Assembly: GCF_019112545.1 (NCBI RefSeq)
Contig: NW_025064891.1
Span: 708,344 to 772,343 of the forward strand
Source of the DNA: Guyanagaster necrorhizus
Taxonomy: Eukaryota > Basidiomycota > Agaricomycetes > Agaricales > Physalacriaceae
Direction: 5' to 3'
DNA: 64,000 nucleotides
Part shown: positions 9,801 through 57,736 of the stretch, piece after piece
How the letters are laid out: each line of letters begins with the position of its first letter
How positions within the stretch are numbered: position 1 is the stretch's first letter
The notes under the pieces: model-generated
Seen by the model: only the letters and a program-made list of their open reading frames with translations
Database searches by the model: none
Told to the model about the DNA's origin: nothing
Position numbers and translations under genes: made by a program

Positions 9801-10048
9801 CCTTCTCAAACTAGAACCAACCTCCACCTTTGCCCTCTGACCTCATTGATAATGAGGAACACTATGAAGTCAACCAGATCCTCCATCATAGACTTCAAAA
9901 AATCAGAGCAAAAGGAGATGGAATGATGATGACTGTTGACTACTTTATCTCTTAGAAAGGTTATGGGCTGGAATCTAATCAGTGGATCAACAAAAGACTA
10001 ATGAATACTGATGAGGCCATACATGAATATGAATTATCCCTAAATTAA
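6900..10048 (+). pseudogene. pol pseudogene of element B
   Basis: Protease is seen near 6957 with ALIDSRCTGS, where the catalytic DSG has become DSR. RT follows (about 7460-8055), with the active site as YLND. A deletion of roughly 330 bases relative to D removes the end of RT, so RNase H (about 8090-8500) follows at once. Integrase occupies 8581-9540, with the first Asp in VDIITRLPD, the second in LDRGLQF and the Glu in the NRQMEHAN block. The chromodomain ends at the stop 10046-10048. Stops are frequent throughout. Confidence 0.85.
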
Positions 10049-14325: not shown

Positions 14326-14738
14326 TGTTATGATTTTTTCTTCTTTTATCTTTTATTCAAGAGATTAATCTCTATTTTTGATTAGTCAGAGCACTTAGAC
14401 CAGCACTTAGGATTGTGGGATAAGCTTAGTCATCACAATACCCTTTTATAGATAGCTTAACAACACTGGACAAAATGCTCTATAGTGCTAGAATGCACAA
14501 TTAGAAAGTTATATCTATAGAATAGATGATGACTGGTATATAAGTAGTGTAGCTCTCACTGTAGTATCTCCAGCTTTGAGCTAAAGTTTATTTCTTCATC
14601 ATTTTATCTTGAGCCAATCTAAAGGCTTTATGATACAAAGCCATATAACATATCAAGTGAACTCTGATATTATTGTCCAAAGTGTGAGACAGTATCAGTT
14701 TATCATGTATTTAGATCACATGTCATTTGGGCTTAACA
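14326..14738 (+). repeat. 5' LTR of element F
   Basis: 413 bases, TGTTATGATTTTT...GCTTAACA. TATATAAG at 14537-14544 and the predicted RNA start AGCTTTGAGCTAA at 14572-14584. About 54 bases shorter than the 3' LTR, so it has suffered deletions. Confidence 0.9.
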
Positions 14739-14752
14739 ATTAGCTCAAAGTC
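14739..14752 (+). other. Self-priming primer-binding site of element F
   Basis: The bases right after the 5' LTR are ATTAGCTCAAAGTC, not the TGG expected of a tRNA-primed element. The reverse complement shares CTTTGAGCTAA with the predicted RNA start in the 5' LTR (14574-14584) and ACTTTGAGCTAA with the 3' LTR (37519-37530). Confidence 0.75.
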
Positions 14753-15332
14753 TTTAGCTTCTCTTTCTCAAGCCCAATTATGCTGAGAAACTGAATGTCT
14801 CTCACATTTAATCTCTCCAACCCAAACTTTACCCACAAGTTCTTCAAACTCCTCACTTCTATCATCAGAACATTGATAGGATTATTAGCTATGCTGTGGA
14901 CACCAATCAATCACTGTCTAGGCTATTCATCACTATCAGGAATTTCAACATATCAGAACTATCCTATGAAATGTCACTCTTGACCTCCCCCTCCATGATA
15001 TCTCTCCTTCTATCAGACAGTCCTTCCAGCTCACAGAAGGAACCATATCTGAAACCATTCTTGGAGGTGCACCTGAAGAGTATCTTAAAAAAGAAGAAGA
15101 GCACCAATACCCACACTAAACTCTGATAACAATCATTAGAGACAATTGCAACTTTTGGGCTATAGAGTTTCAAAGACTATGACCCAACACACTCATCCTG
15201 CACATCAAGTGCATGGATGTCTCCAGCTATGTCCATTCAATGAGAGGCATCCCCTCAACTGCACTCTCTGAGCTCAGCATTGAATACTGTGCCAGAGACT
15301 CCCTTGATACCCTTGGGGTGGCTCAAGAGAAT
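14753..15332 (+). pseudogene. Leader ORF of element F, first part
   Basis: An N-terminal reading (about 14810-14960) contains NPNFTHKFFKLLTSIIRTLIGLLAMLW, collinear with the leader of E and G, where the same position is also hydrophobic. A second frame follows (14896-15126), rich in Ser and Lys. Element E cuts the leader at 15332; it resumes at 23430. No function is assigned. It may be an N-terminal extension of gag or a short upstream ORF. Confidence 0.5.
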
Positions 15333-15791
15333 TGTTAGATCCAAGTGTCATGTGAGCAGATACACATGATAAACAGATGTCTCTTTGCACTTTGAGGAAT
15401 CAGCTGAGTTCACTGATGCATAGTCTGATTGATGTGTCACAAGGCCAAGAGAATTGGCTTGAGGGAGAATGATATAGAATAAACTTTAGCTCGAAGCTGG
15501 AGATTACCAGCAAAAGCAAGCCTCTTAAATACTGTACAAGTCCTGTTCTAAATATATGACTACTAATTGTATGTTGTCAAGTCCTTTGTGCTCTTTGTCT
15601 TTGGGCATTAATACTGTATATAAAAGAGCAGTTGTGCATCATTGGGCAACATGGTTGCATCGAAAGATAATAACAGATTCAGCTAGTTGTGATGACTAAG
15701 CCTTGTCCCATGATCTTAAGCACCTGCTCTAGTGCTCTGATTAAGTATAGAATAGAGGTTAATCAAGAAAAAGAATAGAAAAATCATGATA
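15333..15791 (-). repeat. 3' LTR of element E
   Basis: 459 bases. On the element strand a TATA-like TATTTAAG (15531-15524) lies 33 bases before the predicted RNA start AGCTTCGAGCTAA (15498-15486), which keeps its CpG here. Confidence 0.92.
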
Positions 15792-15824
15792 TTACCTCCT
15801 CATTAAGATCATTGTCCTGATGGC

Positions 15825-18800
15825 TTAATTTAGAGATAATTTATAGTCATGTCTGGCTGTTTCTGCATTCATCTGTTTTTCATTTATCCATTAGTTGGAT
15901 TCTGGTCCATATCCCTTCCAGCTGATCAGATAGTTGACTGTTGTTGTTGTCCCTCCCCTCTTTGCTCTGACTTTACATAGTTTATGGTTTAGTATCTGGT
16001 TGATTTCATAGTGTTCTTTGTCATCAATCAGGTCTGAGGGTGGAGGTGGGAGTCATTGTTGGTTGGAAAATGCTGAGGCAATGTATAGGGTCAGTAATGT
16101 CTCATTAAAGACATTGTGGACCTTTCAGAGCAGTAGTAATTTGAGTTTGTAAGCACTGACCTCTATTTTGGATATAATTGGAAACAGACCAGTATGCTTA
16201 TCAGCCAGCTTGCATTTCAGATGCAGGAGATGAAGGTTGAAAGTGTCAAGTCACACTTGGTCCCAGGGAGTGTATATGTGAGCCGGCTGACAATGCTTAT
16301 TGTATTGGCTTTTTATTGTCAAAGCAGCTTTTTCAAGTGCTATTTTTGTCTCAGCATAGATTTTAGACATAATAGTGGTGAAATCCATGGATGTGGGGGT
16401 CATGGTGTGATATCATTCTGTTTGCATGATGTTTGAGTGTCTGCCATGATTGATAAAAAATGGTGTTTTCCCTATAGCCAAGTGAATGCAGTTGTTATGT
16501 TGGAAGGCCATAAGAGCTAGCCACTCTACCCAGTCATCTTGTCAATAGTTAATGAAGAGGCAGAGGTATTTTTCCACTTTTTGATTTGCTTGTTCTGTCT
16601 GTCCATTGGTCTGGGGATGATACATGGTGGATGTGTTTTGTTTCATGTTCAGAAGATTGTAGAGGTCATTGAGGAATTTTGAGATGAATTGGAGTCCTCT
16701 GCCTGAGATCACCACTTGAGGTATGCCATACTTGGAGGATCTTTGCCCATCTCTCAGAGGTCAATTCTGTCAAGCAAGCAATTGGAATGATTGCTTTCAA
16801 GAATCAATCAACTATGACAATGATTGCATTATAGCCATTACAATCTGGGAGTCTATTGATCATGTTGATAGAGATGTGGGTCCATGGTGATGATGGCACC
16901 TTATTCAGATGAAGTGGCATAGCCCAAGGCTGTGTTCAGGACTTGCCCCTTTGGCAGACTTCACATGCTTTGATATAAGCAGTGATGTCATTGTTCATTT
17001 TGGGCCACTAATATTCCCAGAGTACTAGCTCTTTGATCTTAGTGATGCCAGAGTGGCCAGCAGTGGTATGGTCATGGCAAGTGGCTATGATTTTGCTGCA
17101 TAGTCCTTGGTCTCAAGGGATATAGATTTGTCCATCATAGTGAATCAATCCCTTTTCCCTTGTCATTCCTCATTCATGGTTGAGGGATGAGGCCACCCAC
17201 TGATCCCATTTGTGATTATCTCATGTCATGCTTTTAATGCACTCATGGATCTCTTCTTCTGTTGGCATCATTATAGCCCTAAAATGTTTGGGCTGCAATA
17301 AAGTTACTCTCTTGTTGTCAGTTCCTCTCTGATCATGATCTGCCCATTGGCTGAGAAGGTCAGCCTTCTTGTTAGCTGTCTCCACTTTATGATGGAGCAT
17401 ATATTGATATTGACTAAGCTCTGTGACCCATCTGGCTTGGTGACAATTTAACTTCTGGAGTTGTCAGAAGTATCAAAGATTCTGATGATCTGTCCAGATC
17501 TCAAAAACTCTTATAGCTCTGATCAGATAATGCTACCATTCTTTGAGAGTGAGCATAATGGCCAGCAATTTCTTGTCATAGATTTCATAGTTTTGCTTGG
17601 TGATGGTGAGCACTTTTGAGAGGAATGCAACTGGGCACCATTTTCTATCTTGCTCTTGGAAGAGTACTGCACCAATAGCTCCCTTGCTTGAGTTGGCTTC
17701 CACTCAGAATCTTTCTTTCTGGATGGAAACTGTGAGAACTACATCCTCAGCTAGCCATCATTTAAGATCATCAAAGGTGGCTTGCTGGAATGGTCCTCAT
17801 GCCCAGAGGGTGTTGCCAGTCAACTGCATTATTGGCTGAACTATTTTGCTATAGTCTCAAATGAAGCATTGGTAGAAGTTTGTAAATCCAAAGAATGATT
17901 GCAACTTCTTCTTCTTGATTGGCTCTGGTCACTCCATTACCCTGGCTACCTTGATGGGGTCTATCCAGATACTTCCTTTGCTAATAATAACTCTGAGGTA
18001 CTCAGTCTCAAGTACCTTGAATTCACACTTCTCCATCTTGAGAAACAGTTTATGCTTTCTCATAAGAGCTAGTACTTGTCATACCAGCTTTTGATGTTCC
18101 TCTTTTGTCTATGATATGATTAAAATATCATCCAAATAAATGATGACCTTTCTGGTAGCAATGAGGTCCTTGAAAATATCATTCATCATCCATTGGAAGG
18201 TTGCTGGGAAATTGATCAGGCCGAAAAACATAACTGTTGGCTCAAACAGTCCATGGTTCATCCTGAATGCAGCCTTCCACTCATCTCCTTCTTTAATTTG
18301 GATGTTGTTATAGCTCCATTGGATATCAAGCTTAGTGTAGTATTTGGTGCCTTGGAGTTTGTCTATGAGTTCTGAGATTAGGGGAAGGGAGTAGTGATTC
18401 TTAATTGTCATCTTGTTAAGCTTTCAATAGTCTTGGACTGGTTGAAGCTTACCATCCTTCTTTTTGATAAAGAAGAAGAGGGAGGCCATTGGAGATTTTG
18501 ATGGCTGAATCCAGCCACTGGACAAGTTTTTCTCCAAGAACTTATTGAGTTTCTGTTGTTCATTGTTGCTGAGAGAGTAAGTTTTACAATCCAAGTTGGC
18601 ATTTGCATTTGGGATTAGTTCAATGGCATGGTCCCATAGCTTCAGCCCTGGTAACTTGTCAAAGCTTTCTTTCTTGAAAAGATCTTTAAAGTCACATGCC
18701 CATTCAGGCACCATTTCCTCAAAGGTTCTTTCCTCCTTGTGCTTATTTGCCTTAGCAGCCAGATTGTTAGTGTAATGAACAGCTTGGATATATGCTTCAT

Positions 18801-26355: not shown

Positions 26356-29300
26356 TTAATTTAGAGACAGTTTATAGTCATGTATGGCATTCTCTGCATC
26401 TATGTGTTTTTCATTCACCCACTGATTTGACTCTAATCTATATCCTTTCCAACTGATCAGATAGTCTATGGTTGTCATTATTCCACCTTCCTTTGCTTTA
26501 ACTTTGTAGAGCTTGTGGCCTAGAACTTGATCGATTTCATAGTGTTCTTCACCATCGATCAGGTCAGGAGGTGGAGGCAGTGGATGTTTCTGATTGAGAA
26601 AGACTGATGTGATATATGGTGAGAGTAGTGACTTGTTGAAGACATTATGAATTTTCCAAGCAGTAAGAAGACAGAGTTTATAGGTGCTAGCCTCCATCTT
26701 TGAGACGATGGGGAAGGGGCCTGTGCATTTGTCAGCCAGTTTGTGTTTTGAGCACGGTAGATGTAAATTCATAGTGTTTAGCCAGACTTTGTCATTGGTC
26801 ATATATGCCCATACTGTATGATGGTGTTTATCATATTGAGCCTTTATTGATGTGACAGCTTTCTTGAGTGCGGCTTTTGTTTCAGCATGTATCTTCTGCA
26901 TTATGGTGGCGAACTCTGTTGATGCAGGGGTTGTAGTTTGGCGGTGTTCAGTGTGAGTGATATTCAGGTGTCTTCTGAAGTTAACAAAGAAAGGAGTTTT
27001 CTCTGTCACTGAATGTACCTAGTTGTTATGTTGGAATACTGCAAGCACTAGCCACTCAGTCCAGTCATCTTGGTGGTAATTTATAAACAGTCAGAGATAT
27101 TTTTCTATCTCCTGGTTTGCTTATTCTGTTTGTCCATCAGTTTGCAGGTGATATGTGGTGGAGGCATTTCACTTGATATTCAAGAGTTGGTATAGGTCGT
27201 CTAGGAATTTGGAGACAAATTGAGAACCCTTGTCCAAAATGATTACTTGTAGTATGCCATATTTGGTATGGACTTTATCTCATAGGATTTTTGCTCACCC
27301 TTCCAAGAATAATTTAGTAGAGCAGAGTATAAGAATAATTGTTTTCAAGAACTGGTCAACTATCATGAGGATTGCATCATAGCCATTGCAATCAGGTAGC
27401 CCCATAATCATATTGACTGAAATATAGATCCATGGGGACAACAGTATTTTGTTTGGGTGTAAGGATGCAGTATGGAATTGTGTTGAAGCCTTCTCTCATT
27501 GACAGACCTCACATGCCTTAATGTATGCGACAACATTGTTCCCCATTTTAGACCACCAGTATTCCCGCAGGATGAGTTTCTTGGTTTTTGCAATGCCAGA
27601 ATGTCCAGCAGTTGTGTGGTCATGACAGGTAGCAATGATCCTCCCATGCAGGCTTCGCTTCCTGGGAATATAGATCCTCCTGTCATAATAGATCAATCCA
27701 TCCTTCCTTGTCATCCCTCTTTCATGGTTAAGGGATGGGGCTATCCTTTGGTCCCATTTGTGAGGATCTCAGGTTGCACTCTTGATTTGTTTGTGTATCT
27801 CCTTCTTTGTTGGTATTATCATGGCCCAGAAATGTTTGGATCATAACAATGTGACTCCCTCATTATTAGCCTTGCTCTGGTTGTAATCTGCTTGGCAGCT
27901 GAGAAGGTCAGCCTTCTTGTTGGCTGTTCCTGATTTATGATGTAGGGTGTATTGATACTGGCTGAGCTCTGTTACCCACTGAGCTTGCCAGTGGTTCAAT
28001 TTCTGGGGTTGGAAGTATCTGATATTTTGGTGGTCTGTCCATATCTCAAAGATTTTGGTAGCCTCTATGAAGTAATGGTGCCATTCCTCCAAGGCAAGCA
28101 TTATGGTGAGTAGCTTCTTGTCATATATTTTATAATTTCTTTCTGTGACAATGAGTGCTTTTGAAAAGAACATGACTGGACATCATCTTCCATCCTGCTT
28201 CTGTGAGAGTACTGCACCCATCGCCCCTTCACTTGAGTCTGCCTTGACTCGGAATCATCCTTCTTGGGATGGAATCATGAGTATGACATCTTTGGCCAAT
28301 CATCATTTTAGATCTTTGAATGTGGATCGCTGAAGGCTTCCCCAGATCCAAAGGGCATTACTGGTGAGTTAGATCATTGGTTGAACAATTTTGCTGTAGT
28401 CTCGGATAAACTATCGGTAGAAGTTAGTGAATCTGAGAAAGAATTGTAACTCCTTTTTGGTTGATTCTGGCCATTCAGTCACCTCTGCCACCTTGACAGG
28501 ATCCATTCTAATGCTTCCTTCACTGATAATCACCCTGAGATACTCTGTCTTGAGTATCTCAAATTTGCATTTTTCAGCTTTGAGGAATAGCTTATGTTTC
28601 CTTATAAGGGCCAGCACCTGTTGCACCAATCCCCTGTATTCCTCCTTTGTCTGTGACATAATTAAGATGTCATCTAAATAGATTATGACCTTTCCAGTGG
28701 TGATGAGATTCTTGAATATGTCATTCATCATCCATTAGAATGTTGCAGGAGAGTTGGTGAGTCCAAAAAATATAATGGTGGGCTCGAATAGTCTCCGATT
28801 TGTCCTGAAGGTGGCCTTTCATTCATCCCCTTCCTTGATTCGAATATTATTATACTCCCAGCAGACATCAAGCTTGGTATAATACTTAGCCCCTCAGAGT
28901 TTGTCTATTAACTCTGAAATCAAAGAAAGGGGGTACCAGTTTTTGATCATCATCTCATTCAGCTTCTGATAGTCCTGAACTGGCTGGAGTTTGCTGTTTT
29001 TCTTTTTTACAAAGAAAAATGGTGATACCATCAGAGATTTCAATGGTCGGATGCATCCACTGGATAAATTCTTGTCAAGAAATTTATCGAGCTTCTGTTG
29101 TTCCTGAATGCTAAGGGGGTAAGTTTTGCAATCCAGATTGGCATTGGCATTTGGGACTAGCTTAATTGCATGATCCCAAGGTTTTGGGGCAGAGAGTTCA
29201 TCAAAACTCTCCTTCTCGAAGAGGTCTCAGTAATCTCATGCCCATTCCAGTACTATCTCTTCAAACATCTTCTCCATCCTCCCCTTATTGGCCTTCACTG

Positions 29301-30240
29301 CCAGGTTATTGGCATGATGGATGGCTCGAATGTGAATCTCCTTTTGCAGATCTATAGTGAGGATTATTTTCCTGTCCTCCATTTCTTCATCCCATCTGTC
29401 TTCTGGGTCTTTGTCAGGCAATTCAAATGAGGTTTTTTGGCATTGGCACTGAGCAAAGGTGATTCACTTGATCTTTCAGTTTATGAGCAGATTATGCTGT
29501 ATGAGCCAGTCATAGCCAAGGAACACCTTCTTGGTTCCCAGATCAGTCACCATCAGGTTGATTCATTCAGAATGATCCCCGATGATGAGTCGGAGTTCAA
29601 TAAACTCAGTTATTGAGCCAGCTTGATTCTTTGTCCTGTCAGTGTTATAGACTGAGATGGGGACTGTGGTGGTCCTAATTGGGAGTTTGTTTTTGGCGAT
29701 GAAGGCTTGATTTATTGAACTTCCTGTGCATCCACTATCGATTAGGGCAGTTACTGAGTATGTGGATCAGAAAGTCAGGGTCTTGATCTGAACCTTGGTT
29801 GTCAAATCCCTTTCAGAAGTCTTAGTATATTGAATGAATCTTTAAGGTCCATGCAGTTCATGCAGCTATTCAAGGGCCCTACTGTGTTTGGCCCTTCTGA
29901 TCTCTTCTACTATTTCATTGGTTGCTTCCTTAGTTTGAGTTTAGTGTATCCAGGTTTTTAATATGGCTATGGTGGCTGTTTGATCCTTTGCTTCTTTGAT
30001 GGCTCTCTAGGTCCATTCAGTGTCAAATGGCTTGAGCCAGTTCATGGGGCTCTCTGCCCTTGTTCGGCTCATGGGCAATTGAGTCTTAGTTTGTGATTCA
30101 GAGGTGTGTGTAATAGTTGATTGGGATATAGCTGAATGTGTAGATAAAGTGGAGGTAACTACAGGGGTAATATAAGTCCAGCTAGTGGCTATAGGAGGCA
30201 CACCTCTTGATTGCTTGGCCAGTCCAGTGGAATCGCTCAC
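26356..30240 (-). pseudogene. pol pseudogene of element G (PR, RT, RNase H, integrase, chromodomain)
   Basis: From GTG 30240 to the stop at 26356 is 1295 codons in one frame, broken only by in-frame stops. Linker (SDSTGLAKQ). Protease ALIDSGCTGSSINQAF at 29720-29760 with an intact DSG. RT 29421-28411: YLDD at 28669-28680. RNase H 28173-27841, keeping KKLLTIMLA and WTDHQNIRYF. Integrase zinc finger at 27714-27496 (HDHTTAGHSG, then CEVCQ), core about 27450-27010. The last open stretch (27009-26356, 217 aa) holds the integrase C-terminal domain and a chromodomain (YEIDQVLGHKLYKV, DYLISWKGY). It is nearer to function than any other family-2 pol here, but dead. Confidence 0.92.
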
Positions 30241-33587: not shown

Positions 33588-36500
33588 TTATTAGGCCCTA
33601 GAATAGCTTGATGAGCTTTAGAGACCATGGAAGTTTATCCAATGATCTAAAACCCCAGGCCAAGGCTTAGATCAAGACACTCACATCTCAAAGTACTCAT
33701 GCAGTAACTGCTTTAATCAACAGCAGCTGCATCAGTAGCTCAATTAATTGTGCTTTTGTTATCAAGCACAAATTACCCACTCAGGCCACTGTAGCTCCAA
33801 TTCCAGTTTATAATGTGGATGGGACAAAGAACCAGGCTGGTTCAATTACTGAATTTATTGAGCTCAGACTCATAATTGGAGATCATTCCAAATGAATTAA
33901 TTTAGCTATAATCAACCTCAGGACTAAGGAGGTCTTTCTTGATCATGACTGGCTTATCTGCCACAATCTGCTCATTAACTGGAAGACCAGTTGAATCACA
34001 TTCACCTAATGCTGATGTTAAAAAATTCTATTTGAACTATCTGATGATCCTAAGGACTAATGGAATGAGGAGATAGAGGATGGCAAGATCATTCTCACTG
34101 TTGACCTGCAAAAAGCTATATATATTTGGGTGATGCATCATGTGAATAACTTGGTGGCTAAGGCTAATGCAGAAAAGGATGAGAAGACATTCAAAGAGAT
34201 GGTGCCAGAGTGAGCATGAGACTATCAGGACTTATTCAACAAGGAAAGTTTTAACAAACTACCTGACTCAAAACTATGAGACCATGCCATAGAGCTGGTC
34301 TCCAATGCAAACACCAATTTAGACTGCAAGACATACTCTCTTGGTATCAATGAATAACAAGAGCTTGACAAGTTCTTGGATAAGAACTTGTCCAGTAGAT
34401 GCATATAGCCATCAAAGTCCTCAATGGCCTCACCCTTCTTCTTTGTCAAAAAGAAGGATGGCAAACTCTGACCAGTATAAGATTATCAGAAGCTCAATGA
34501 AATGACAATCAAGAATTATTATCTGCTTTCACTGATCTCCAAATTAATGAACAAGCTCCATGGTGCCTAATACTATACTAAACTGGACATCCACTAAGGC
34601 TATAACAATGTACAGATCAAAGAAGGCAATGAATGAAAGGCCACCTTCTGCACAAACCATAGGCTGTTCAAGCCCATAGTGATGTTCTTCAGCCTTACCA
34701 ATTCATCAGCAACCTTCCAATGGATGATGAATAATATATTCAAGGATCTCATTGCTACTGAAAAGGTCACTATTTATTTGGATGACATCCTCATCATGTC
34801 CAAAACAAAGGAGGAACATTGATGACTAGTACAACAAATACTAGTCCTTATGAGAAAACACAAACTATTTCTCAAAGCAGAGAAATACAAGTTTGAGATA
34901 CTTGAAACCAAGTATCTCAGGGTCATCATTAGCAAAGAGAATATTTGAATGGACCCTATCAAAGTAGCAGAGATTATAGAATGGCCAGAGCCAACCAAAA
35001 AGAAAGAGCTATAATCCTTTCTTGACTTCACTAACTTCTACTAATACTTTATTCAGGACTATAATAAAATAGTCCATCCTATGATGCAATTAACTGGCAA
35101 CATGCCCTGGACATAGGGTTCATCCCAACAATCAGCATTTGACAATCTCAAATGATAGTTATCAAAAGATATAGTTCTCACTATCTCAACTCAGGATGGG
35201 AGGTTCTGCATTAAGGCTGACTCAAGCAAAGATGCCATTGGTGCTGTACTCTCCCAAGAACAAGATGGCTAATAGCATCCAGTTGCATTCCTCTCTAAGG
35301 CACTAATCATTACAGAATGCAACTATGAAATATATGACAAGGAGTTACTTGCTATAATACTTGCTCTAAAAGAGTAGCAGCATTACTTGATTGGTGCTGT
35401 TGAAGTTTTTGAGATCCAGACAGATCATCAAAACTTATAATACTTCCAACAGTCACAAAAGCTAAACCACCAACAAGCCAAATGGGTGACTAAATTTAGC
35501 TAATACCAATATACACTGCACTATAAGGTGGGTGCAGCAAATAAGAAAACCAACCTTTTCAGCTAGTAGACTGATCATGACCAAGAAGAGAACAATAAAG
35601 AAGTAATATTATTAAAGTCTGAACATTTCTGGGTGATGATAATACTGATTGAAGAGGAGATCCACAAGCAGATTAAGAGCACTATAAGGGATACAAAGAA
35701 GTGAGACCAATGCATGGTCCCATCTCTTAATCATGAGCATAGGATGACAAAGAAAGATGGGATGATCCACTATGATAGGCAAATCTACATCTCAAGAGAC
35801 AAGGCTCTTCATAGCAAAATTATCACCACATACTATGATTATGCAACTGCCAGTCACCCAGACATTGTGAAGGCCAAGGAGCTTATCTTACAAGAATATT
35901 AGTGGCCAAAAATGGGTATTGACATTACTCAATATGTTAAGGCATGTGAAGTTTGCTAATAAAGCAAATCTTTGATACAACTATGTGTGATGCTCTTTTA
36001 TCTGAACAAGATACTATCATCACCATAGACTCATATTTTGGTAGATATGATCATCAGACTATCAGACTATAGCAGCTATGATGCTATCATTATTATAGTT
36101 GATTGATTCTCTAAAGCAATCATCCTGATCATCTGTTTTACAGAACTAACCTCTGAGAGATAGACAAAGATTTTATATGACAAGATATATGCCAAATATA
36201 GTATATCCCAAGTCATGATCTCAGACAGAGGATCTCAATTCATATCTAAATTTCTAGACAACTTATATTATCTCTTGAACATCAAATGAAATGCATTCAC
36301 TGCCTACCATCTACAAACTGATAGCCAAACAGAACAGACTAACAAAGAGATAGAAAAATACCTCCATCTCTTTATCAATTACCAACAGGATGACTGGATA
36401 GAATGGCTGGCTCTTGCTGCCTTCCAATACAACAACTAAGTTCACTCAGTCACCGGTAAGACCTCGTTTTTTTATCAATCACAGACAATATCCCAATGTC

Positions 36501-37103
36501 ACTTAGACCAAATGACACTATACTATGACACCCACATCTACTGGCTTTGCCATAACCATGGCAAAAATCCATGATAAAACCAAGATGGCACTTGAAAAGG
36601 CTATAACAATGATGAAAAAGTAATATAACAAATACCATCATACTGCTTATGAATATTCAGTCAACAACAAGGTTTGACTGGATATCACAAATCTTTATCT
36701 CCCATGACCAAAACAGAAACTCACTGATAAATGCATAGGCCCATTCTCAGTCTTTATCAAAATTGGCAAATCCATCTACAAATTGCAACTTCTAACAACT
36801 TGGAAGATACACAATGTCTTTAATGAAACATTATTGACACTATACATTGTGTTGGCATTTTTCAACCAGAAGTGACCACTGCTTCTGCTACCAGACTTGA
36901 TTGACAATAAAGAATATTATAAAGTTGATCAGGTATTAAACTACAAATTACAAAAAATCAAGGCAAAAAGCAGCAGAATAATCACTACAGTTGACTATTT
37001 AGTCAGCTGAAAGAGTTATAGACCTGAATCAAACCAATGGGTTAATAAATGACATATGAATATCAATGATGTAATATATGACTATAAACAGGCATTGAAC
37101 TGA
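33588..37103 (+). pseudogene. pol pseudogene of element F, main part
   Basis: It continues from 25866 after element G. Protease near 33715 (ALINSSCISSSINCAF, DSG lost), RT about 34200-35090 with YLDD at about 34777, RNase H about 35150-35580, integrase zinc finger about 35800-35960 and core about 36050-36350 (SDRGSQF retained; the Glu block reads TDSQTEQTN). The chromodomain (about 36910-37080: YYKVDQVLNYKLQKI, DYLVS*KSYRPESNQWVN) ends at TGA near 37103. Many stops. Confidence 0.87.
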
Positions 37104-37219
37104 TATTTTATTAGTCAATATCTTCATAAATCTTATAAGAAGAGCAGATTATCTGCTCTTAGACACTAAAACTTATTCCTAAATTAGCCATCAGGATGAT
37201 AGTCTTAAAGAGAGAGTAA
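37104..37219 (+). other. 3' untranslated segment and polypurine tract of element F
   Basis: A perfect 10-base inverted repeat with a one-base loop lies at 37140-37160 (arms AAGAGCAGAT and ATCTGCTCTT). The polypurine tract CTTAAAGAGAGAGTAA (37204-37219) abuts the LTR. Confidence 0.65.
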
Positions 37220-37686
37220 TATTATGATTTTTCCTTTTATTTTTTATTTGAGGGATTAACCCCTATCTTTGATTAGTCAGAGCTTAGACTAGCACTTAGG
37301 ACCATGAGATAGGCTTAGTCATCACAACAATGCTTAGTCAGTCATTGTCCTTCAATATAATGGTAATCACTTGATAACAAACAATACTCTTTTGTAGATA
37401 GCTTAATAATACTAAACAAAATGCTTTATAGTGCCAGGATGCACAATTAAGTAGTTATATCTATAGAATGGATGATGACTGGTATATAAGTAGTGTAGCT
37501 CTCACTGTAGTATCTCCAACTTTGAGCTAAAGTTTATTCTTCATACTATTTTATCTCAAGCTAATCTAAAGACCTTAAGATATAAAGCCATATAACATAT
37601 CAAGTGAACTCTGATATCATCTGTCCAAAGTGTGAGACAGCATCAGTTTATCATGTGTACAGGTTATATGTCATTTAAGCTTAACA
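37220..37686 (+). repeat. 3' LTR of element F
   Basis: 467 bases, TATTATGATTTTT...GCTTAACA. TATATAAG at 37483-37490, predicted RNA start ACTTTGAGCTAA at 37519-37530. Followed by the ATGAC duplication. Confidence 0.92.
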
Positions 37687-38433
37687 ATGACCATGCAACT
37701 GCCAGTCATCCAGATATTACCAAGACCAAGGAATTAATTCTATGCAAATATTGATGGCTGAAGATGGGTATTGACATCATCTAATATGTCAAAGCATGTA
37801 AGGTTTGTCAACAAGACAAATCCTCAACATAATTATAGGCTACTCTATTTTATCCAAACAAGATCCTATTGTCACTATGGATTCATATTTTGGTCAATAT
37901 GATCACTGGATTATCAGACTGCAATGGCTATAATGCCATCCTCATCATAGTCAATTGGTTTTTGAAGGTGATCATACTGATCACTTGTTTGATGGAATTA
38001 ATATCAGAGAGGTGAGTGAAAATCCTGTGAGATGAGGTTTACACTAAATATGAAATGTCCCAAATGATTATCTCAGACAAAGGACCACAATTCATATTCA
38101 AGTTCTTAGACAATTTATATCACCTACTCAATATCAAATAAAATATATCTATCATCTATTATCTGCAGATGAATGGACAGACAGAACAAGCAAATTGAGA
38201 GATGGAGAAATATCTCTACCTTTTCATCAACTATCACCAAGATGACTGGGTTGAATAGTTGGCACTGGCTGCTTTTTAATATAACAACTGAATCTATTTA
38301 GCCATGAGCAAGATGCTATTCTTTATAAACCACAGCCATCATCCTCATATCACCCAAACTGAACACACCCACACCATAATGCCTGTCTTAATGGATTTCA
38401 TTACAACCATGATAAAAATTCATGCTGAGACTT
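37687..38433 (+). pseudogene. pol pseudogene of element D, second part (integrase)
   Basis: Starts with ATGACCATGCAACTGCC, the exact continuation of 14325. Integrase zinc finger (CKVCQQDK near 37798), core with ISDKGPQF near 38060 (second Asp kept) and the MNGQTEQAN block near 38172, which keeps the third catalytic Glu. It is cut at 38433 in the integrase C-terminal region by element M. Stops are interspersed. Confidence 0.85.
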
Positions 38434-38925
38434 TGTTAGGAACGTGCCAATCGAGTGGGCTTGAGTGCATGCGTGGAGTCCAGTGGAGTGCATGGGCGTT
38501 GACGAAGCTATTGGCAACGTCACCCTTGAGTCGGAGCCCAAGGATCTGGATGGACAGAATGGAGTTCTGTTAGAGAAGTGAACAGGAGTATCCTTCGGAG
38601 CGGAATCTGACGGATGAGATAGGGAGGAGTGAGTACGAAGTGTAGATGGCTTATCCAAGTTGATATTCGAACTGAGTAGTTACAGTGATATACATGGCTT
38701 TATATACTAATGGTAGCTAATTCCGAGTCGGGTTCCATTGGGTTCCGGTGTGAATATTCGCTACCGAGTTCGAGGTCTAGGTATTACAATGTGAAATACA
38801 GATGTGAAATGATAATGGTGAAATGAAATTAGTAGGTAATGGGAAGCGGCCGGAGTCCAGTGGGTAGCATGATAGAATTCGTGGTTGGTTGAGATGACAC
38901 GGAGGCCAGCAGCATGCACGTAATA
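38434..38925 (-). repeat. 3' LTR of element M
   Basis: 492 bases, TGTTAGGAAC...CGTAATA on the + strand (terminal CA mutated to TA). The TATA box (TATATAAAG on the element strand) lies near 38698-38706, with the RNA-start complement ATATTCGAACT at 38663-38673. Confidence 0.95.
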
Positions 38926-38942
38926 GTATCCCCCCCTTAGCG
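38926..38942 (-). other. Polypurine tract of element M
   Basis: On the element strand CGCTAAGGGGGGGATAC directly precedes the 3' LTR, the expected plus-strand primer position. Confidence 0.85.
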
Positions 38943-39048
38943 TTCTTGCCCTCAAGAGCACTGATCCCAATGGCCGGTGGGGCCACATGGAGGATTGTTG
39001 GTGGCCGTGGGAGTTTTGTATCTTGATCTGAAACCACCATCATCGCCT

Positions 39049-40387
39049 ATGTCATCGCTCACCACGTATCGTCGCTCATGCACTCCCGAGCCTCTGGTGA
39101 GGGGATCCACCCCCGATGGCCCTGAAGAGGCCAAGGAATTGTTTCATCTAGAATGGGAGGCTGCAGAGGAAGAATACGCGGAGGCCATGGAGAGTCATTT
39201 GGAATGGCAAAGGGAGCAAGAGTGGGAGGAAAGGGTCCGGGCGGACCGTGTGGCCCAGGAGGCATGGAAAAAGGAGCAGAAGGAGGAATTAGAGAGGAAG
39301 AGGGAGGAGGTTCAGCAAGCCACGGAGAGGCGGGCTAAGGAGGCAGAGGAGGCATTGAGAGAGGCGGCTCAGAGGGCGGCTGAGGAGAGGGAGGCCGTGG
39401 AGAGGGAGGCCGCGGAGGTGGCGGCGAGGGCTGAGGCTGAGGAGGTAGAGCCAGAGGGGATGGTTATGGAGGATGGGTTGCTGATGACCCCCGTGGAGGC
39501 CACTGATTTTCGGCTGCATCAAGTTTTGGCGGAACGGTATGGTCCTGGCCCTGGTCTTCGCTTCAAGAAGGTGACTCGCCATATGCCTCTGGAGTCTGAT
39601 GATGAGCAGGCGAAGGGGACTGAGGGGGACGATGAGTCCGAGGAATCCGAGGGGACCCTGGAGAGGAGGAAGAGGGTGTGGGAGGGGAAGAGGAGGGCAG
39701 TGGTTCCGGCGGAGAAGGGATGTAAATGCACGTTCAGGTCGAGGGGCATAGTGGATGACAGTGAGACAGAGGTGATCGTTAGCCCCAAAAAGTGGGCGAA
39801 GTTGGAAGTGGCAGGGCCGGTGGAGAGCAAAGAATTGTTGGATGGTGAAAGTAAGTGTCTTGGTTTTCTTCCATGGCTTAACTTAGCTTTTGTTTTCAGG
39901 GAGTTGTGTGCGTTGTCATCAAGATGGCGCACAGTGTTATGCATGACTGGTAACCGAAGGCGCCGGTCGAGAGCGGACTTGCTCTCGCTGCAAGGTCAAG
40001 AAAACCGCCTGTTCATTCAACAAGGGCGTCACTGCGAGTGAGGTGATCAGCAGTGTGGAGGTCTCCGCTGGTCTCCACCAACTTTCAAAATTGATACACA
40101 AGTTGATGCGTCATATGGATGAGTTGGCGGATGTTCATGGTACTGTGGCAGGTCTTCAAGATGACTATGGTTCTGACGATATGTCGTCTCCTTCGGAGCT
40201 GTTTTCAGAGTCCGAGGTGGAGGCCTGGAAGAAGGCCCGACTGATTTTCAAGGATGAGAGGGATCAGGAGGTGGAGGATCTTCGGGAGGCGATGTTGAAG
40301 GGGCTGGACGAGGATATAGAGGAGTTGAAGGAGCAGGGGGAGAGTTCGGGTTCCGGTGCAGGCCCATCAGGTTCCGCTTCTTTGTAA
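39049..40387 (+). CDS. Antisense accessory gene of family 1: spliced coiled-coil protein with two cysteine triads
   Basis: Exon 1 is 39049-39850, the intron 39851-39899 (49 bases: GTAAGT donor, CTTAAC branch-like site at 39877-39882, TTTTCAG acceptor), exon 2 39900-40387. The first in-frame ATG is at 39049; the frame opens earlier only from GTG. 429 codons. Residues ~25-130 form a Glu/Arg/Ala-rich coiled coil (EELERKREEVQQATERRAKE), ~175-200 an acidic patch, then a basic region. The splice creates CX2CX6C (C270, C273, C280) and CX2CX5C (C295, C298, C305), then a second coiled coil. A TGA at 39944-39946 (codon 283) lies between the triads, probably from CGA. The gene faces pol, ending 144 bases from the pol stop, and starts 123 bases from the 3' LTR. 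The six cysteines recall fungal Zn2Cys6-like proteins, but the spacing is not the Gal4 type. Function unknown. Confidence 0.78.
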
Positions 40388-40531: not shown

Positions 40532-43500
40532 TTAGGAATGGGATGTTTGAATGACTTTGGACAAGGGTCCTGGTTTGCCTGGGTATCGATGATGGAATTC
40601 TTCAATAAATTCATCAGCGGAGAACTCGGAGACCGGTAACCAAGCAAACTCTTCACTGGTACCTTCGTATCCTAGCCACTGGATTTTGTACAGCAGTGGG
40701 CAGCGGAACCGGCGGTCCAGTTTAGAGTCGAGGATTTGGGCTATTTCGAAATGTTCTTCTCCGTCAACTTCGACTGGAGGCAGTGGTGGTTGGATTCGGT
40801 TGGGAATGGTGTTTTCTTCTATGGGTTCCAATTGTGACACATGGAAGATGGGGTGAATGGACCAGAGGTCCGGCGGAAGCCTCAGGGTAAAGGAGTGGGT
40901 ACCAGGTTGGGCTATGATTTCGAAAGGACCAAGGTATTTCTCCGAGAATTTTCTGGTCGGGCAGGTGGTTTTGATATGTTTGGAGCTGAGGTAGACCTTG
41001 TCTCCCACTGTGAACAGAGGTGCCAGAATCCAGTGCTTGTCTGCTTGGGTCTTGTAGCGAGACTGAGCTTCAGAAATTTCATCCTTCAGTAATTGATGGA
41101 GTTCATCAAGATTGACCGCGAAATCTCAGGCCCGGGCGGAGGCGATATCCCTTTCAGGGTGAACGGTGATGTTGGAGTGGTAACCCTTGTTAGCGAAGAA
41201 TGGGGAAATTCCGGTGGACGCGTTAGGGGCATTATTGTAGGCAAATTCAGCAATGGGTAAGAGGGTGTCCCAGTTGTTCTGCTGGTAGGAGCAGTAGATG
41301 CGGATGTATTGTTCCAGAGTTTGGTTTGCTCATTCAGTTTGGCCGTCGGCCTCCGGATGATAACCAGAGGTAAGGTGGAGTTTCATGTCAAGGGCCACGG
41401 CTAAGGCGCAAGTAAATTGGGAGACGAATTCGGAGCCGCGGTCGGATGTGATGTGACTGGGTACCTCATGTTTGGAGAATACGTGGAAAAGGAAAAGTTG
41501 GGCGAGCTCCACGGAGTTGATGGTGTCATGAGTGGGAATGAAGATGGCTTGCTTGCTAGCTCGGTCTATGACTACTAAGATGGCGGTGAATCCGTTGGAG
41601 TCCGGTAGTTGTTCAATGAAGTCCATGGAAATGGAATCCCATGGCCATTCGGGAACTGGCAGAGGTTTCAGTAACCCATAGGGGCGGTGTCTGGATGCCT
41701 TGTTGCGCCCACAAACTGTGCAGGACTTAACATAGTGTCGGACATATTCACGCATCTTTGGCCAGATGTAGTTCCGCTGGACTAGTTCTAATGTCTGGTT
41801 TTGACCAAAGTGACCTGCCAAGATGTGGTCATGATTGTTCTGTAGTATACGGAGACGGAGATCGTCAGAGTCCGGGACGTGGATGCGGCCTTCGAAGTGA
41901 AGGATGTTGGATTCGTCAATGGACCATTGAGAGGGAGAGGATTCGGAGGTGGCCTTGGCCTGGTGGAGGCCGTCGGAGGACGTAGCATCAGAGGATTGTG
42001 CTTGTCTGATATCGGTGTGGAGTTTGTCGATATCCATGATGGCACTAGCCCATAGGGTGGGGCCTTCGAGATAGGTTGCTCGGAGTGATGCGGAGAGTTG
42101 TTCTTGGGTGAACACGGGTCGGAAATTGTGCGGGTTGATTTGGGCATATTGGCTATCCCCCTCTTTAGGGTAGACGTTCCATCGTCTAGTGAGCGCATCC
42201 GGTTTCCCACCAAGTTTTCCAGGGCAGAACTGGATTACTAGGTTGAACTGGGATAGGTATTCGGACCAGCGGACCTGTCGGCGGGTTAGAATCTTAGTGG
42301 TGGCAAAGTATTCAAGATTCTTGTGGTCTGTTACGACATCGATGGAGTCCGCGGAGCCTTCAAGGTAGTGCCACCAATGTTTAAAGGCTTCAAAAATGGC
42401 TAGAAGCTCTTTGTCATGGGTGTCATAGTTGAGTTCAGCATTGTGGAGGCTCCGGGAGCGGAAAGCGATGGGGTGAATTTTGCCATCTTCAAGATAGATA
42501 GAGAGGATAGCTGCAATTGCATAGTCGGAGGCGTCGGTTTCCACCACTATCTTTCGATTGGGGATCCAGTGGGTAAGGATGGGGGCATGTGTAAAGGCCT
42601 GTTTCAACTCATTGAAGGTGGCCAAGCATTTGTCATCAAATTTCCATGGGGTTCCCTTGCAGGTGAGTCATGTAAGGGGGATGACGATATCGCTATATCC
42701 GTGTATGAAGCGATGGTAGAAGTTGGCAAAGCCAAGGAAGGATTGGATGTCCTTGACTTTTCGCGGCACCGGCCAGTCAACAATCGCCTTGACTTTTTCT
42801 TCAGACATGCGAAGTCCTTCAGGTGATAGGATGTAGCCTAGGTACTCCACGGAGTCCTGGTTGAATTTGCATTTGGAACCTTTGCAGTAGAGTCCATTAG
42901 CTCTAAGCCTGCGTAGGACCTCACGAACATGTTTCTGGTGATCTTCCAGATTGTCGGAATATATAAGGATGTCATCAAGGTAGACTACTACTGATATGTC
43001 GAGCATGTCTGAGAATATATCGTTCACAAATCGTTGGAATGCCGCTGGAGCATTTGTGAGGCCAAAGGGCATGACGTGCCATTCGAAGGAACTGTAACGG
43101 GTCCAGAAGGCTGTTTTCCATTCATCCCCCTTAGCTATGCGAACGAGATGGTAGGCATGCCAAAGGTCGAGCTTGGTGTAGATGCGCGCAGAGCGGGCGG
43201 AGTCGAGGAGATCAGAAATGAGGGGGAGAGGGTAGCGATCTTTCTTGGAGATTTTGTTTAGGCCACGGTAGTCGACGCAAAGTCGGAGTTCACTGGTCTT
43301 TTTCTTGACGAATAGAACTGGAGCCCCGTGTGGAGAGCGGGATGGAGTAATGAACCCATTGCGCAGATTATCATCAATAAACTCTCGTAGAGCTTTGAGT
43401 TCAGATTCTGAGAGAGAATAAATGGGTCCAAGTGGTGGGGATGTCCCTTCCTCAAGGTTGATTTTGAGGTCGTACGGTCTGTGTTCAGGTAGTTTTTCGG

Positions 43501-44362
43501 AGAGAGTATCGCTGAAGACATCTGCAAAATCGTGGTACTCTACTGGCACTGATGAAAGATCTGCCAGTTCTGCGGATGCGGCTTTGGCTCTAATATTAGG
43601 CAAAGAAGGCTGCAGTGTGAACTGCTGAGCGCCTTCTTCTGCACTGGCTCGGATGAATGTGGCAGCGGATATGATGGAGATCTTTGGGTGTGCTTTCATA
43701 GTAAAAGATTCTGAGAGAGGATAGGAGTAGATGGGTTCATATGGGAATGAAGTCTGCCGGTTACCCGATGTGGACTTGGAATGGGGTGAAGCCCCAGAAG
43801 TTGGACTGATAGAGTCCGATGGGCATGGAAGTCCCGAAATTGAGCTGGAAGGCTCGGAAAGGGGTGGACTGTTGTCCTGTGGGCCGTCAGCGCTGCCTGG
43901 GCCATTGGGATCACCTGGTCCTCCTGGTCCACCTGGGAAAGGGTTTGGTGGATTGCCAGCTGGTTCCCGTCGGATGGGAGTATGAGTAGGGGTGTCTTCA
44001 TCTCTGCCCTCTGAGTCTGGGCTGTCTGGATTCCCATGGTTGTTGCCCAGGGATAAGGGGTCTATTGGGGGGTCAGTTCAGGCGCCATATATCAGGCTGG
44101 CCCGTCGGGCCCCGTTGGTTGGGATGCTGGTGGCGTCGAAAGGGTTAGGGGAATTGTCGTAATTAGGTTGGCGGGCAGTGAAGCTAGAGTGATTGTAGGT
44201 TTCCCTATGGGAAGGTTGTTCTCCACTGGAGGCTGATCCAAACAGGCCTGGTTGTTCCTTTGAGGCAGATGCCGGGATGTCTTCCATAGAAAACATGTTT
44301 GGATGGGTGGGCTGCCTTTGTTCAGGATCGGTCTCTGTGGGTTCGGTAAATGTGGTGGACAT
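40532..44362 (-). pseudogene. gag-pol of element M: single frame, four TGA, lacking capsid, nucleocapsid and protease
   Basis: From ATG at 44362 to the stop at 40532 is 1277 codons in one frame, interrupted by TGA at 44078, 42668, 41330 and 41126 only; each stands where arginine CGA is expected. The N-terminus (MSTTFTEPTETDPEQRQPTH) and a Pro/Gly stretch run straight into the post-protease linker ([20 protein letters not shown]), so the middle of gag and the protease are absent. RT 43500-42670: TKLDL and [10 protein letters not shown] intact, with some Arg-to-Trp changes. RNase H 42570-42190: TDASDYA, KELLAIFEA, VTDHKNLEYF, PDALTRR all present. Integrase: AGHFG and CTVC finger, then MDFIEQL, TSDRGSEF and HPEADGQTE. 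Chromodomain about 40760-40580 (FEIAQILDSK, YKIQWLGYEG). Confidence 0.93.
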
Positions 44363-44388
44363 GATAAAATTTTCGACTCAAGGGTTTG

Positions 44389-44399
44389 AGTTCGAATAT
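44389..44399 (-). other. Self-priming primer-binding site of element M
   Basis: On the element strand the 5' LTR is followed by GTATATTCGAACTC. Its ATATTCGAACT is the exact complement of AGTTCGAATAT, which lies 34 bases after the start of the TATA box in both LTRs (44641-44631; 38673-38663). No tRNA-type TGG start is present. Confidence 0.8.
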
Positions 44400-44401
44400 A
44401 C

Positions 44402-44893
44402 TGTTAGGAACATGCCAATCGAGTGGGCTTGAGTGCACGTGCGGAGTCTGGCAGAGTGCATAGGCGTTGACGAAGCTATTGGCAACGTCACCCTTGAGTC
44501 GAAGCCTAAGGATCTGGATGGACAGAATGGAGTTCTGTCAGAGAAGTGAACAGGAGTATCCTTCGGAGTGGAATCCGACGGATGAGATAGGGAGGAGTGA
44601 GTACGAAGTGTAGATGGCTTATTCAAGTTGATATTCGAACTGAGTAGTTACAGTGATATACATGGCTTTATATACTAATGGTAGCTAATTCCGAGTCGGG
44701 TTCCATTGGGTTCCGGTGTGAATATTCGCTACCGAGTTCAGGGTCTAGATATTACAATGTGAAATACAGATGTGAAATGATAATGGTGAAATGAAATTAG
44801 TAGGTAATGGGAAGTGGCCAGAGTCCGGTGGGTAGCGTGATAGAATTCGTGGTTGGTTGAGGTGACACGGAGGCCGGCGGCATGCGTGTAACA
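44402..44893 (-). repeat. 5' LTR of element M
   Basis: 492 bases, TGTTAGGAAC...CGTGTAACA on the + strand. TATA box near 44667-44675. Followed by GACCT, the better-preserved copy of the target duplication. Confidence 0.95.
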
Positions 44894-45416
44894 GACCTTG
44901 ATGACTCTTGAGAAGGCCACATCAACAATGAAAAAGCAATATGACAAGCATTGAAGACCAGTGCATGAGTATTCAGTCAATGATAAAGTTTGGCTGGATA
45001 CCACTAACTTACACCTTCCTTGTCCAAAATGGAAACTTATCAATAAATGAATGAGTTTATTTCTAGTCTGTGCCAAAGTTGATAATTCTGCTTACAAGTT
45101 GCACCTTCCAATCAATTAGAAGATACATGATATCTTTAATAAAATATTATTGACATTATATGTCACTCTTGCATTCTCAAATCAGAAACAACTATCTCTG
45201 CCACTATTAGATTTTATCAATGATGAAGAACACTATAAAATCAACTAGATACTAGACTATAAATTATGAAAAACCAAGGCCAAAGGTGGCAGAATGATGA
45301 TAATGGTAGACTATCTGATCAGTTGGAAAGATTATAAATCAGAATCAAACCAATAAGTCAACAAATAGCATATGGACACTGAGAATGCAATCCATAAATA
45401 CAATCAGAGACATTGA
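44894..45416 (+). pseudogene. pol pseudogene of element D, third part (integrase end and chromodomain)
   Basis: Continues the D integrase after M: KKQYDKH, VHEYSVNDKVWLDTTNLHLP, then a chromodomain near 45220-45400 (EEHYKIN, LDYKL, DYLISWKDYKSESNQ). The stop TGA is at 45414-45416. Confidence 0.85.
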
Positions 45417-56486: not shown

Positions 56487-57736
56487 TATTGCCTTCCACT
56501 GTGTATCATCACTTATATACTCCTAAGCCTTTGGTGAGGAAACCCACCTCTAATGGCTTTGAAGAGGCTAAGAAATTATTTCATCTGGAATGACAGACCA
56601 TAGAAGAAGAGTATGTGGAGGCTATAGGAGTCCATTTGGAGTGAAAAAGAGAGCAGGAGAGAGAGGAGAAGGTTTAGGTGGGCAGCAGAGAGGTGAGCAA
56701 AGGAGACAGAGGAGGCAGCTCAAAGGGAGGCTGAGGAGAGGGAGACTGTGGATGCCATAGTGAGAGCTTCAGCCTCAGAGGTAGGGCAGAAAGAGATGGT
56801 TACAGAGGATAGATTGCAAATGACCCCTGCAGAGGCTGTTGACTTTCATCTGCATTAAGTGTTAGCAGAATAATTTGGTTCTAGTCCTGATCTTCACTTC
56901 AAGAGAGTGACTGGTTGTATGCCTTCAGAGTCCAATGATGAGCAGGGCAAGGGGACTGAGGGGGATGATGAATCTGAAGGATCTGAGGAGATCTTGGAGA
57001 GAAGAAAAAGGGTGTGAGAGGAGAAGAGGAGGGCAGCAGATCTGATGAAGAAGAGCCATAAACACAAGTTCAGATCAAGGAATGTAGTGGATAGCAGTGG
57101 GACAGAGGTGATTGCTAGTCCCAAAAAGTAGATGAAGTTGGAAGTGGCAGAGCTGGTAGAGAGTGAAGAGCTTTTGGATGGTGAAAGTAAGTGTCTTGGT
57201 TTTCTTATGTGGTTTGACTTAGCTTTTTTTTTTCAGAAAGTTGTGTGCACTGTTGTCAGAATAATGCATGGTGTTACATGTGACCAGTAACTGAAGATGC
57301 CAGTTGAGAGCAGACTTGCACTTTCTGCAAGATCAAGAAAACTGCTTGTTTATTCAACAAGAGTATCACTGCAAGTGAGGGAATCAGTAGTGCAGAGGTC
57401 TTTGCTGACCTCCATCAAGTTTCAAGATTAATGTGCAAGTTGATATGTCATATAGATGAGTTGGTAGAAGAGCTGGTGGATGTCTGCAGTACAGTAGCAG
57501 GTCTCCAAGCTGACTATAGTTCTGATAATATGTCATCTCTCTCAGAGCTGTTTTTAGAATCTGAAGTGGAGGCTTGAAAGAAGACCTAGCTGATTTTCAA
57601 GAATGAGAAGAATCAGGAGGTGGAAGGTATTTGGGAGGTGATGTTGAAGAGGCTGGATAAGGATATAGAGGAGTTAAAGAAGTGGAGGGAGAGTTTGGGT
57701 TCTAGTGTGGGCCCATTGGATTCCACTTCTTTGTAA
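56487..57736 (+). pseudogene. Antisense accessory gene of element I, decayed
   Basis: Third copy of the family-1 antisense gene. The start ATG is ATA (56487-56489 by alignment to M). A large deletion removes much of the first coiled coil (near 56675). The acidic patch (SDEQGKGTEGDDESEGSEE-like text, 56930-57000) survives. The intron 57187-57236 (50 bases, GTAAGT ... TTTCAG) is intact. Exon 2 keeps CX2CX6C, the same TGA at 57281-57283, then CTFCKIKKTAC and the second coiled coil, ending at TAA 57734-57736. Confidence 0.75.

Follow-up and report, generated by a model that had tools for sequence, protein, structure and literature searches.

The window analysed here is a stretch of 64,000 nucleotides from the agaricomycete Guyanagaster necrorhizus (contig NW_025064891.1, positions 708,344 to 772,343), which carries three copies, designated M, A and I, of one family of Ty3/gypsy retrotransposons (family 1). 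In all three, an additional gene runs antisense to pol in the interval that separates the chromodomain open reading frame (ORF) from the 3' long terminal repeat (LTR), which confirms what an initial annotation of this DNA had claimed (chromodomain ORF at 40532-41125 and 3' LTR at 38434-38925 in M). Comparison of sequences within this genome and with related fungi supports the conclusion that this antisense gene encodes an accessory protein of the element, that it is most likely spliced and that it is under purifying selection. In M, the gene starts 123 bp inside of the 3' LTR; its end faces that of pol, tail to tail, across 144 bp. This position, antisense to gag-pol and within the interval between pol and the 3' LTR, is the one by which an aORF-3R is recognized. 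The layout of the gene in M and the positions of the other two copies are as follows:

39049-39850, plus strand: exon 1 of copy M (802 nt), open from the ATG, with an N-terminal motif, a Glu/Arg-rich helix, an acidic patch and a basic motif
39196-39441, plus strand: charged helix rich in Glu, Arg and Ala, either a coiled coil or a single helix, from the translation
39594-39657, plus strand: acidic patch, from the translation
39781-39810, plus strand: basic motif resembling a nuclear localization signal (NLS), ahead of the cysteine domain; one replacement in M
39851-39899, plus strand: intron of 49 nt (36-57 nt elsewhere), phase 1, GTAAGT...AG
39900-40387, plus strand: exon 2 of copy M, with the stop codon at 40385-40387
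39905-40012, plus strand: six-cysteine domain, C-X2-C-X6-C-X14-C-X2-C-X6-C
39944-39946, plus strand: in-frame TGA of M between the two cysteine triads, at a site where A and I carry it as well
40034-40348, plus strand: helical tail with two predicted helices, 40034-40168 and 40208-40348 (AlphaFold; mean predicted local distance difference test score, pLDDT, of 54, which is low)
3840-5173, minus strand: antisense gene of copy A, broken
56487-57736, plus strand: antisense gene of copy I, broken and the most diverged of the three

Removal of an intron that begins with GTAAGT and ends with CAG in all three copies fuses exon 1, which is acidic and rich in Glu and Arg, with the exon that carries the cysteines, so that the 49-50 base intron, the intact splice signals and the exon fusion of the initial annotation are all borne out. 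Its spacing of the first cysteine triad, CX2CX6C, was likewise correct, while the second triad, given as CX2CX5C, is actually CX2CX6C as well. What did not hold is the continuous spliced frame in the window copies: M is interrupted by the TGA, copy A has suffered a 17-base frameshifting deletion just past the ATG as well as three in-frame stops, and copy I has lost its ATG and contains many stops, leaving an intact frame in none of the three. A chance ORF was nevertheless rejected as an explanation, because the stop-free runs on the antisense strand (346 codons in M, 369 and 318 codons in the genomic copies L029 and L019, respectively) were each reached by none of 500 dinucleotide shuffles.

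A DNA search of the fungus' own genome (53.3 Mb, 109 contigs) yielded 268 candidates, 40 of which were scored; these copies show 83-100% identity and are mostly near full length. In the family alignment, which comprises 38 fetched copies plus M, A and I (n = 41), six copies (L011, L019, L028, L029, L030 and L031; 426-433 codons) have an uninterrupted spliced frame between the ATG and the stop codon, and in L023 the frame is open as far as masked sequence. Thus, open frames do exist elsewhere in the genome, on which the initial annotation had made its proposal depend. Each of the six cysteines is retained in 38-41 of the 41 copies, one of them being lost in the open copy L011. A GTAAGT donor and an AG acceptor are present throughout (41/41), with intron lengths of 49 nt in 36 copies, 50 nt in one, 51 nt in two and 52 nt in another two. 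As the length is not a multiple of three in 39 of the 41 copies, read-through would in most cases shift the frame.

More distant relatives were found by querying the genome with the Armillaria protein P0002, a homologue of the antisense product described below, which gave at least 162 matches at E 1 or better (150 of 285 candidates scored). Ten further loci (L047-L056) were chosen from these matches; relative to the L029 protein, eight of them show 36-64% identity, and L052 and L056 80-86%. The intron is present in nine of the ten and always ends with AG, its donor being GTAAGT in eight loci and GTGAGT in L051, whereas in L049 (G000:C18:328300-332900) a single deletion took away both the acceptor and the first cysteine triad. 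In a comparison of seven distant loci, one of 42 donor positions has changed, as compared to 90 of 269 positions in the intron interior. Conserved ends flanking a drifting interior indicate that the gene is most likely spliced. Moreover, since the genomic RNA contains the intron solely as its complement, splicing of this RNA cannot excise the intron, which thereby survives retrotransposition. An intron readable on the antisense strand only would be pointless unless an antisense RNA were made, spliced and translated.

The gene stands tail to tail with the chromodomain in all ten fetched further loci. When 150 of 1958 chromodomain candidates and 150 of 254 gene candidates were scored, at least 102 of the 150 chromodomain matches, and 45 of the best 50, paired with a gene match 227-362 bp away in the correct orientation, and a same-strand gene match near a chromodomain was absent among the matches listed. 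Presence in most copies of the family, as expected of an aORF-3R, is hence observed here. Within the window, matches to the gene at E 1e-3 are confined to the three family-1 elements, and none falls on another chromodomain-bearing stretch.

Most of the differences among family members resemble neutral decay following insertion. L029 differs from the 40 other copies by 6103 transitions and 717 transversions. Mild constraint is seen for shared non-CpG transitions (0.79), whereas shared CpG transitions are neutral (1.01). The ratio of nonsynonymous to synonymous rates (dN/dS) among young copies, proposed as a check by the initial annotation, proved uninformative owing to this near-neutral decay; the constraint that it had been meant to reveal is visible between subfamilies. 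As within-family tests are weak and dominated by recurrent transitions, we used between-subfamily transversions instead, relating those at codon positions 1 and 2 to the four-fold rate in comparisons of four references with eight distant loci. The resulting ratio is 0.40-0.51 in the frame of the antisense gene and 0.93-3.8 in the other five frames, a comparison of pairs that share history and not a formal test. In the chromodomain, taken as a control, it is 0.20 in frame, 0.60 in one reverse frame and above 1 in the remaining frames; hence, a reverse frame can drop below 1 through overlap with a constrained one. Pairwise dN/dS is 0.39 in frame as compared to 0.53-0.83 in the others and falls from ~0.60 to 0.29 as dS rises. 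A low ratio in this frame and high ratios in the others indicate constraint while the elements multiply. These substitution patterns support purifying selection on the antisense gene during multiplication, which appears looser than that on the end of pol and hardly acts after insertion.

As a separate observation, the decay of family 1 consists almost entirely of transitions, and CpG observed/expected ranges from 0.92 down to 0.00 over the 41 copies. Transition-only decay and CpG loss resemble the outcome of a repeat-directed or methylation-linked process.

The protein search suggested by the initial annotation failed with a single sequence and succeeded with a profile. Residues 125-428 of the spliced protein matched nothing at E 1e-3 among 7994 scored proteins. 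A profile of exon 2 from ten copies gave two matches among 2333 candidates, and widening it by these two proteins and the divergent loci yielded 15 homologues, each with an E of 4e-13 or lower, out of 7996 scored. Three of them come from A. ostoyae, five from A. borealis, one from A. solidipes and six from others, all nine named ones being Armillaria; they include ARMOST_06972, ARMOST_08596, ARMOST_08547, EV421DRAFT_1901466, EV421DRAFT_1730171 and ARMSODRAFT_1026471. Over the aligned parts, the homologues are 29-41% identical to the spliced L029 protein. The alignment begins near the start codon in six homologues (P0007, P0008, P0011, P0012, P0013 and P0015), and in P0002 it runs across the exon junction for 92 residues at 41% identity. 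The second cysteine triad is present in all 15, the basic motif in nine and the full six-cysteine pattern in five; in the gene models of P0011, P0012, P0013 and P0015, the first triad is partly or wholly missing at the junction. None of the eight homologues scanned reached a Pfam cut-off. Thus, the Armillaria proteins, known here as proteins only, are homologous and share the cysteines, but their gene models vary at the junction and several possess an additional C-terminal part: in P0003, P0004, P0005, P0011 and P0012, ~150 residues (FWYGLRG...KPYG.DLGI) are appended that are absent from the window family. Taken together, the accessory gene belongs to a lineage of Ty3/gypsy elements with an integrase chromodomain, which carries it in this fungus and probably in Armillaria too.

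Element M itself, of the Ty3/gypsy type, lies on the minus strand; reverse transcriptase, RNase H, integrase and a pol end with a chromodomain follow each other between its two LTRs. The pol matches exceed the Pfam cut-off for RVT_1, RT_RNaseH, Integrase_H2C2, rve and SH3_Tf2-1 and stay under it for Chromo. A 5-base target-site duplication with one mismatch flanks the element; domain order, LTR pair and target-site duplication are those of a Ty3/gypsy chromovirus. Its parts are:

44402-44893, minus strand: 5' LTR, 94.3-94.5% identical to the 3' LTR
42668-44077, minus strand: reverse transcriptase ORF (Pfam RVT_1)
41330-42667, minus strand: RNase H and integrase (Pfam)
40532-41125, minus strand: pol end with SH3_Tf2-1 (60.7 bits, cut-off 30) and chromodomain (Chromo, 19.7 bits, cut-off 25.1)
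38926-39048, plus strand: leader of 123 bp from the 3' LTR to the antisense ATG, with the polypurine tract as a C run at 38930-38936
38434-38925, minus strand: 3' LTR

Of 490 sites compared between the two LTRs, 5.5% differ, none of them by a transversion. Only 324 bases (44078-44401), containing no listed ORF of 150 codons, separate the reverse transcriptase ORF from the 5' LTR, so M seems to lack gag. In the leader, ~31 bases adjoining the polypurine tract (38937-38967) are near-invariant by eye in ten of ten aligned copies, L051 included; this block contains TCTTG-CCCT-CAAGA, a short dyad that might act as a binding site or in the priming of the plus strand. At E 1e-3, the antisense gene has no match in the window's remaining gypsy pol stretches, some of which include a chromodomain (7465-10030, 12898-18711, 26374-29307, 34160-38186 and 44907-45353).

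Charged helix, acidic patch, basic motif, six cysteines and helical tail would together suit a nuclear, zinc-binding, paired protein. The basic motif, [KR][KR]xKxE[VI], occurs in five of seven near-intact copies; we read it as a putative NLS, and judging from the protein sequence the product is probably nuclear. The six cysteines may bind zinc. Their spacing fits the rule for Zn(II)2Cys6 clusters, CX2CX6CX5-16CX2CX6-8C, and a comparison of profiles with six Zn clusters of the host aligns the six cysteines with six (probability 22.9, P 9e-4). However, the basic residues lie in the first triad in the host clusters (PF00172) and in the second triad in the antisense protein. In the own genome, Zn_clus gave 80 listed matches, 64 of them over the cut-off, and none falls on a listed copy of the antisense gene. 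A sequence search of the PDB with the cysteine domain returned two matches at chance level (best E 0.11), and Pfam scans of the antisense protein and its homologues revealed no bZIP family. With Zn_clus below the cut-off, the basic residues in the second triad and the cysteine region below a pLDDT of 50, we do not file the product as a Zn(II)2Cys6 protein.

Antisense genes have precedents in retroelements, though the list in the initial annotation, which was right for plant gypsy elements, was too narrow in naming plants only. The brtn gene of Boty-like elements reportedly goes back to Zhao et al. 2011. In print, brtn is cited as an additional antisense gene of the fungal Boty element of Botrytis cinerea, and the gag-pol of Boty-like elements is listed with a CHROMO domain (cited passages of PMC7264820, PMC8365987 and PMC4227169). 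As here, brtn is an antisense gene of a fungal gypsy element, but it belongs to another fungal phylum, and we liken the two by description only. The cited passages on plants document Grande gene23, RIRE2 and Retand TRP28 (aORF-3R), the Grande product being nuclear and TRP28 predicted to bind DNA (PMC7264820, PMC11963269); one of them describes the roles of antisense ORFs in LTR retrotransposons as undetermined (PMC7264820). The plant aORF-3R are antisense like the fungal gene, but a spliced coding intron and a six-cysteine domain do not figure in these passages, and Retand belongs to a non-chromovirus lineage. Retroviruses provide HBZ of human T-cell leukaemia virus type 1 (HTLV-1) and APH-2 of HTLV-2, the former described in the cited part of the source as a spliced, nuclear regulator expressed from the 3' LTR (PMC10186651). 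HBZ follows the same logic as proposed below for the fungal gene, but it is retroviral and of bZIP type, unlike the antisense protein, and we claim no homology. While antisense genes in gypsy elements are already known, one that is spliced or rich in cysteines did not turn up for basidiomycete elements in the literature searched (open-licence papers only).

On balance we lean, at somewhat better than even odds, towards an accessory protein that the element makes from a spliced antisense mRNA and that is nuclear, holds zinc and most likely regulates LTR transcription. The antisense transcript would originate from the 3' LTR or the 123-bp leader and would be spliced and translated to a two-exon product of ~430 codons. 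The protein would enter the nucleus, hold zinc by its six cysteines and pair via its helices, and may then act on DNA or chromatin of the element, by analogy with what HBZ does for HTLV-1 most likely on transcription from the LTR.

Several observations weigh against this interpretation. Most of the 41 family copies, including all three in the window, are broken. In 12 of the 41, the frame is shifted by the 17-base deletion between two near-identical short repeats after the ATG (39052-39078 and counterparts). This deletion requires ~10 changes on the tree, five of them forced by well-supported branches, as compared to 10.6 with shuffled labels; being so scattered, it must recur or be exchanged among copies, and it may point to slippage that recurs, to exchange or to an on/off site. 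Singleton transitions within the family look neutral (1.01), and the excess of replacement over silent transversion sites among singletons (34:10) relative to shared sites (19:14) is not significant (Fisher p 0.08). As to splicing, seven of the nine further intron-bearing loci, namely L047, L048, L053 and L054 (48 nt) as well as L051, L052 and L056, have an intron whose length is divisible by three (36, 48, 51 or 57 nt), and those introns inspected by eye are stop-free. Retention would keep the frame open in these loci, making a retained-intron isoform with ~16 mostly hydrophobic extra residues possible there. P0014 indeed contains 16 extra residues exactly at the junction, which suggests, from the protein, a retained intron at the same place. 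With regard to zinc, Pfam Zn_clus reaches 9.5 bits where 21 are needed (E of 2.7 or more for ten copies; P0003, 7.2 bits), and two AlphaFold models predict the helices but no confident fold for the cysteine region, whose pLDDT is below 50.

The gene might also be coding and spliced while its protein serves the particle, nuclear import or the integration complex, e.g. as a zinc-binding chaperone or as a target-site tether acting next to the chromodomain. Its restriction to the three family-1 elements in the window and its constraint only while elements multiply are consistent with such a role, and a nucleic-acid chaperone, too, could make use of the basic motif and the cysteines. A protein required along with Gag would, however, have an unusual source in an antisense mRNA. 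We consider this role possible but unlikely. A protein that counters host silencing, through anti-methylation or anti-RNAi activity, has a model in the VANC proteins, which counter silencing for some plant DNA transposons. The near-transition-only decay and the CpG ratios falling from 0.92 to 0.00 suggest that the host methylates or mutates repeats, but the same decay affects copies of elements generally, and we regard an anti-silencing function as rather improbable. Ranked by analogy, regulation of the element's own transcription would come first among candidate functions, particle, import or targeting roles second and anti-silencing third.

Three further explanations fare worse. A recently captured host gene carried along as a passenger could account for an intron like those of host genes, in a genome with at least 64 Zn(II)2Cys6 matches over the Pfam cut-off. 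Yet all ten fetched P0002 loci, among the matches listed, lie inside elements, and the low identities of eight loci to L029 (36-64%) and of the Armillaria homologues (29-41%) show that the gene is old; recent capture is thus very unlikely. Convergent transcripts of pol and the antisense gene would overlap, and the cited passages of one source discuss a role of antisense transcription at the RNA level for plant elements (PMC7264820). That the antisense RNA itself is functional, by interference or as double-stranded RNA, with the frame being incidental, is even less probable, since the frame-specific constraint, the amino acid conservation in the homologues and the retained cysteines require translation, which leads us to reject an RNA-only function. 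Finally, an env-like ORF on the sense strand might be the real gene and the antisense frame its shadow: in M, exon 1 and the junction are overlapped by minus-strand stretches that stay open for 197 and 158 codons. Yet the three reverse frames show transversion ratios of 0.93-3.8 and a dN/dS of 0.53-0.83, and splice ends are readable on the antisense strand only, so that we give this explanation hardly any weight.

The intron provides an internal test of antisense expression, with its ends fixed and its interior drifting. An accessory protein encoded in this way would account for a set of unannotated Armillaria proteins, and the open copies within one genome together with the Armillaria homologues make its function testable in fungi. 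A more far-reaching scenario, which we put forward tentatively and hold to be rather doubtful as a whole, is that chromoviruses of agaricomycetes arrived on their own at an equivalent of the retroviral antisense regulators: a spliced gene, kept across fungal genera, whose nuclear product, helical and with six cysteines, binds the LTR or leader of its own element and controls transcription or integration, and whose intron is safe from removal by retrotransposition. If the protein binds DNA, it would represent a fungal parallel to HBZ of HTLV-1.
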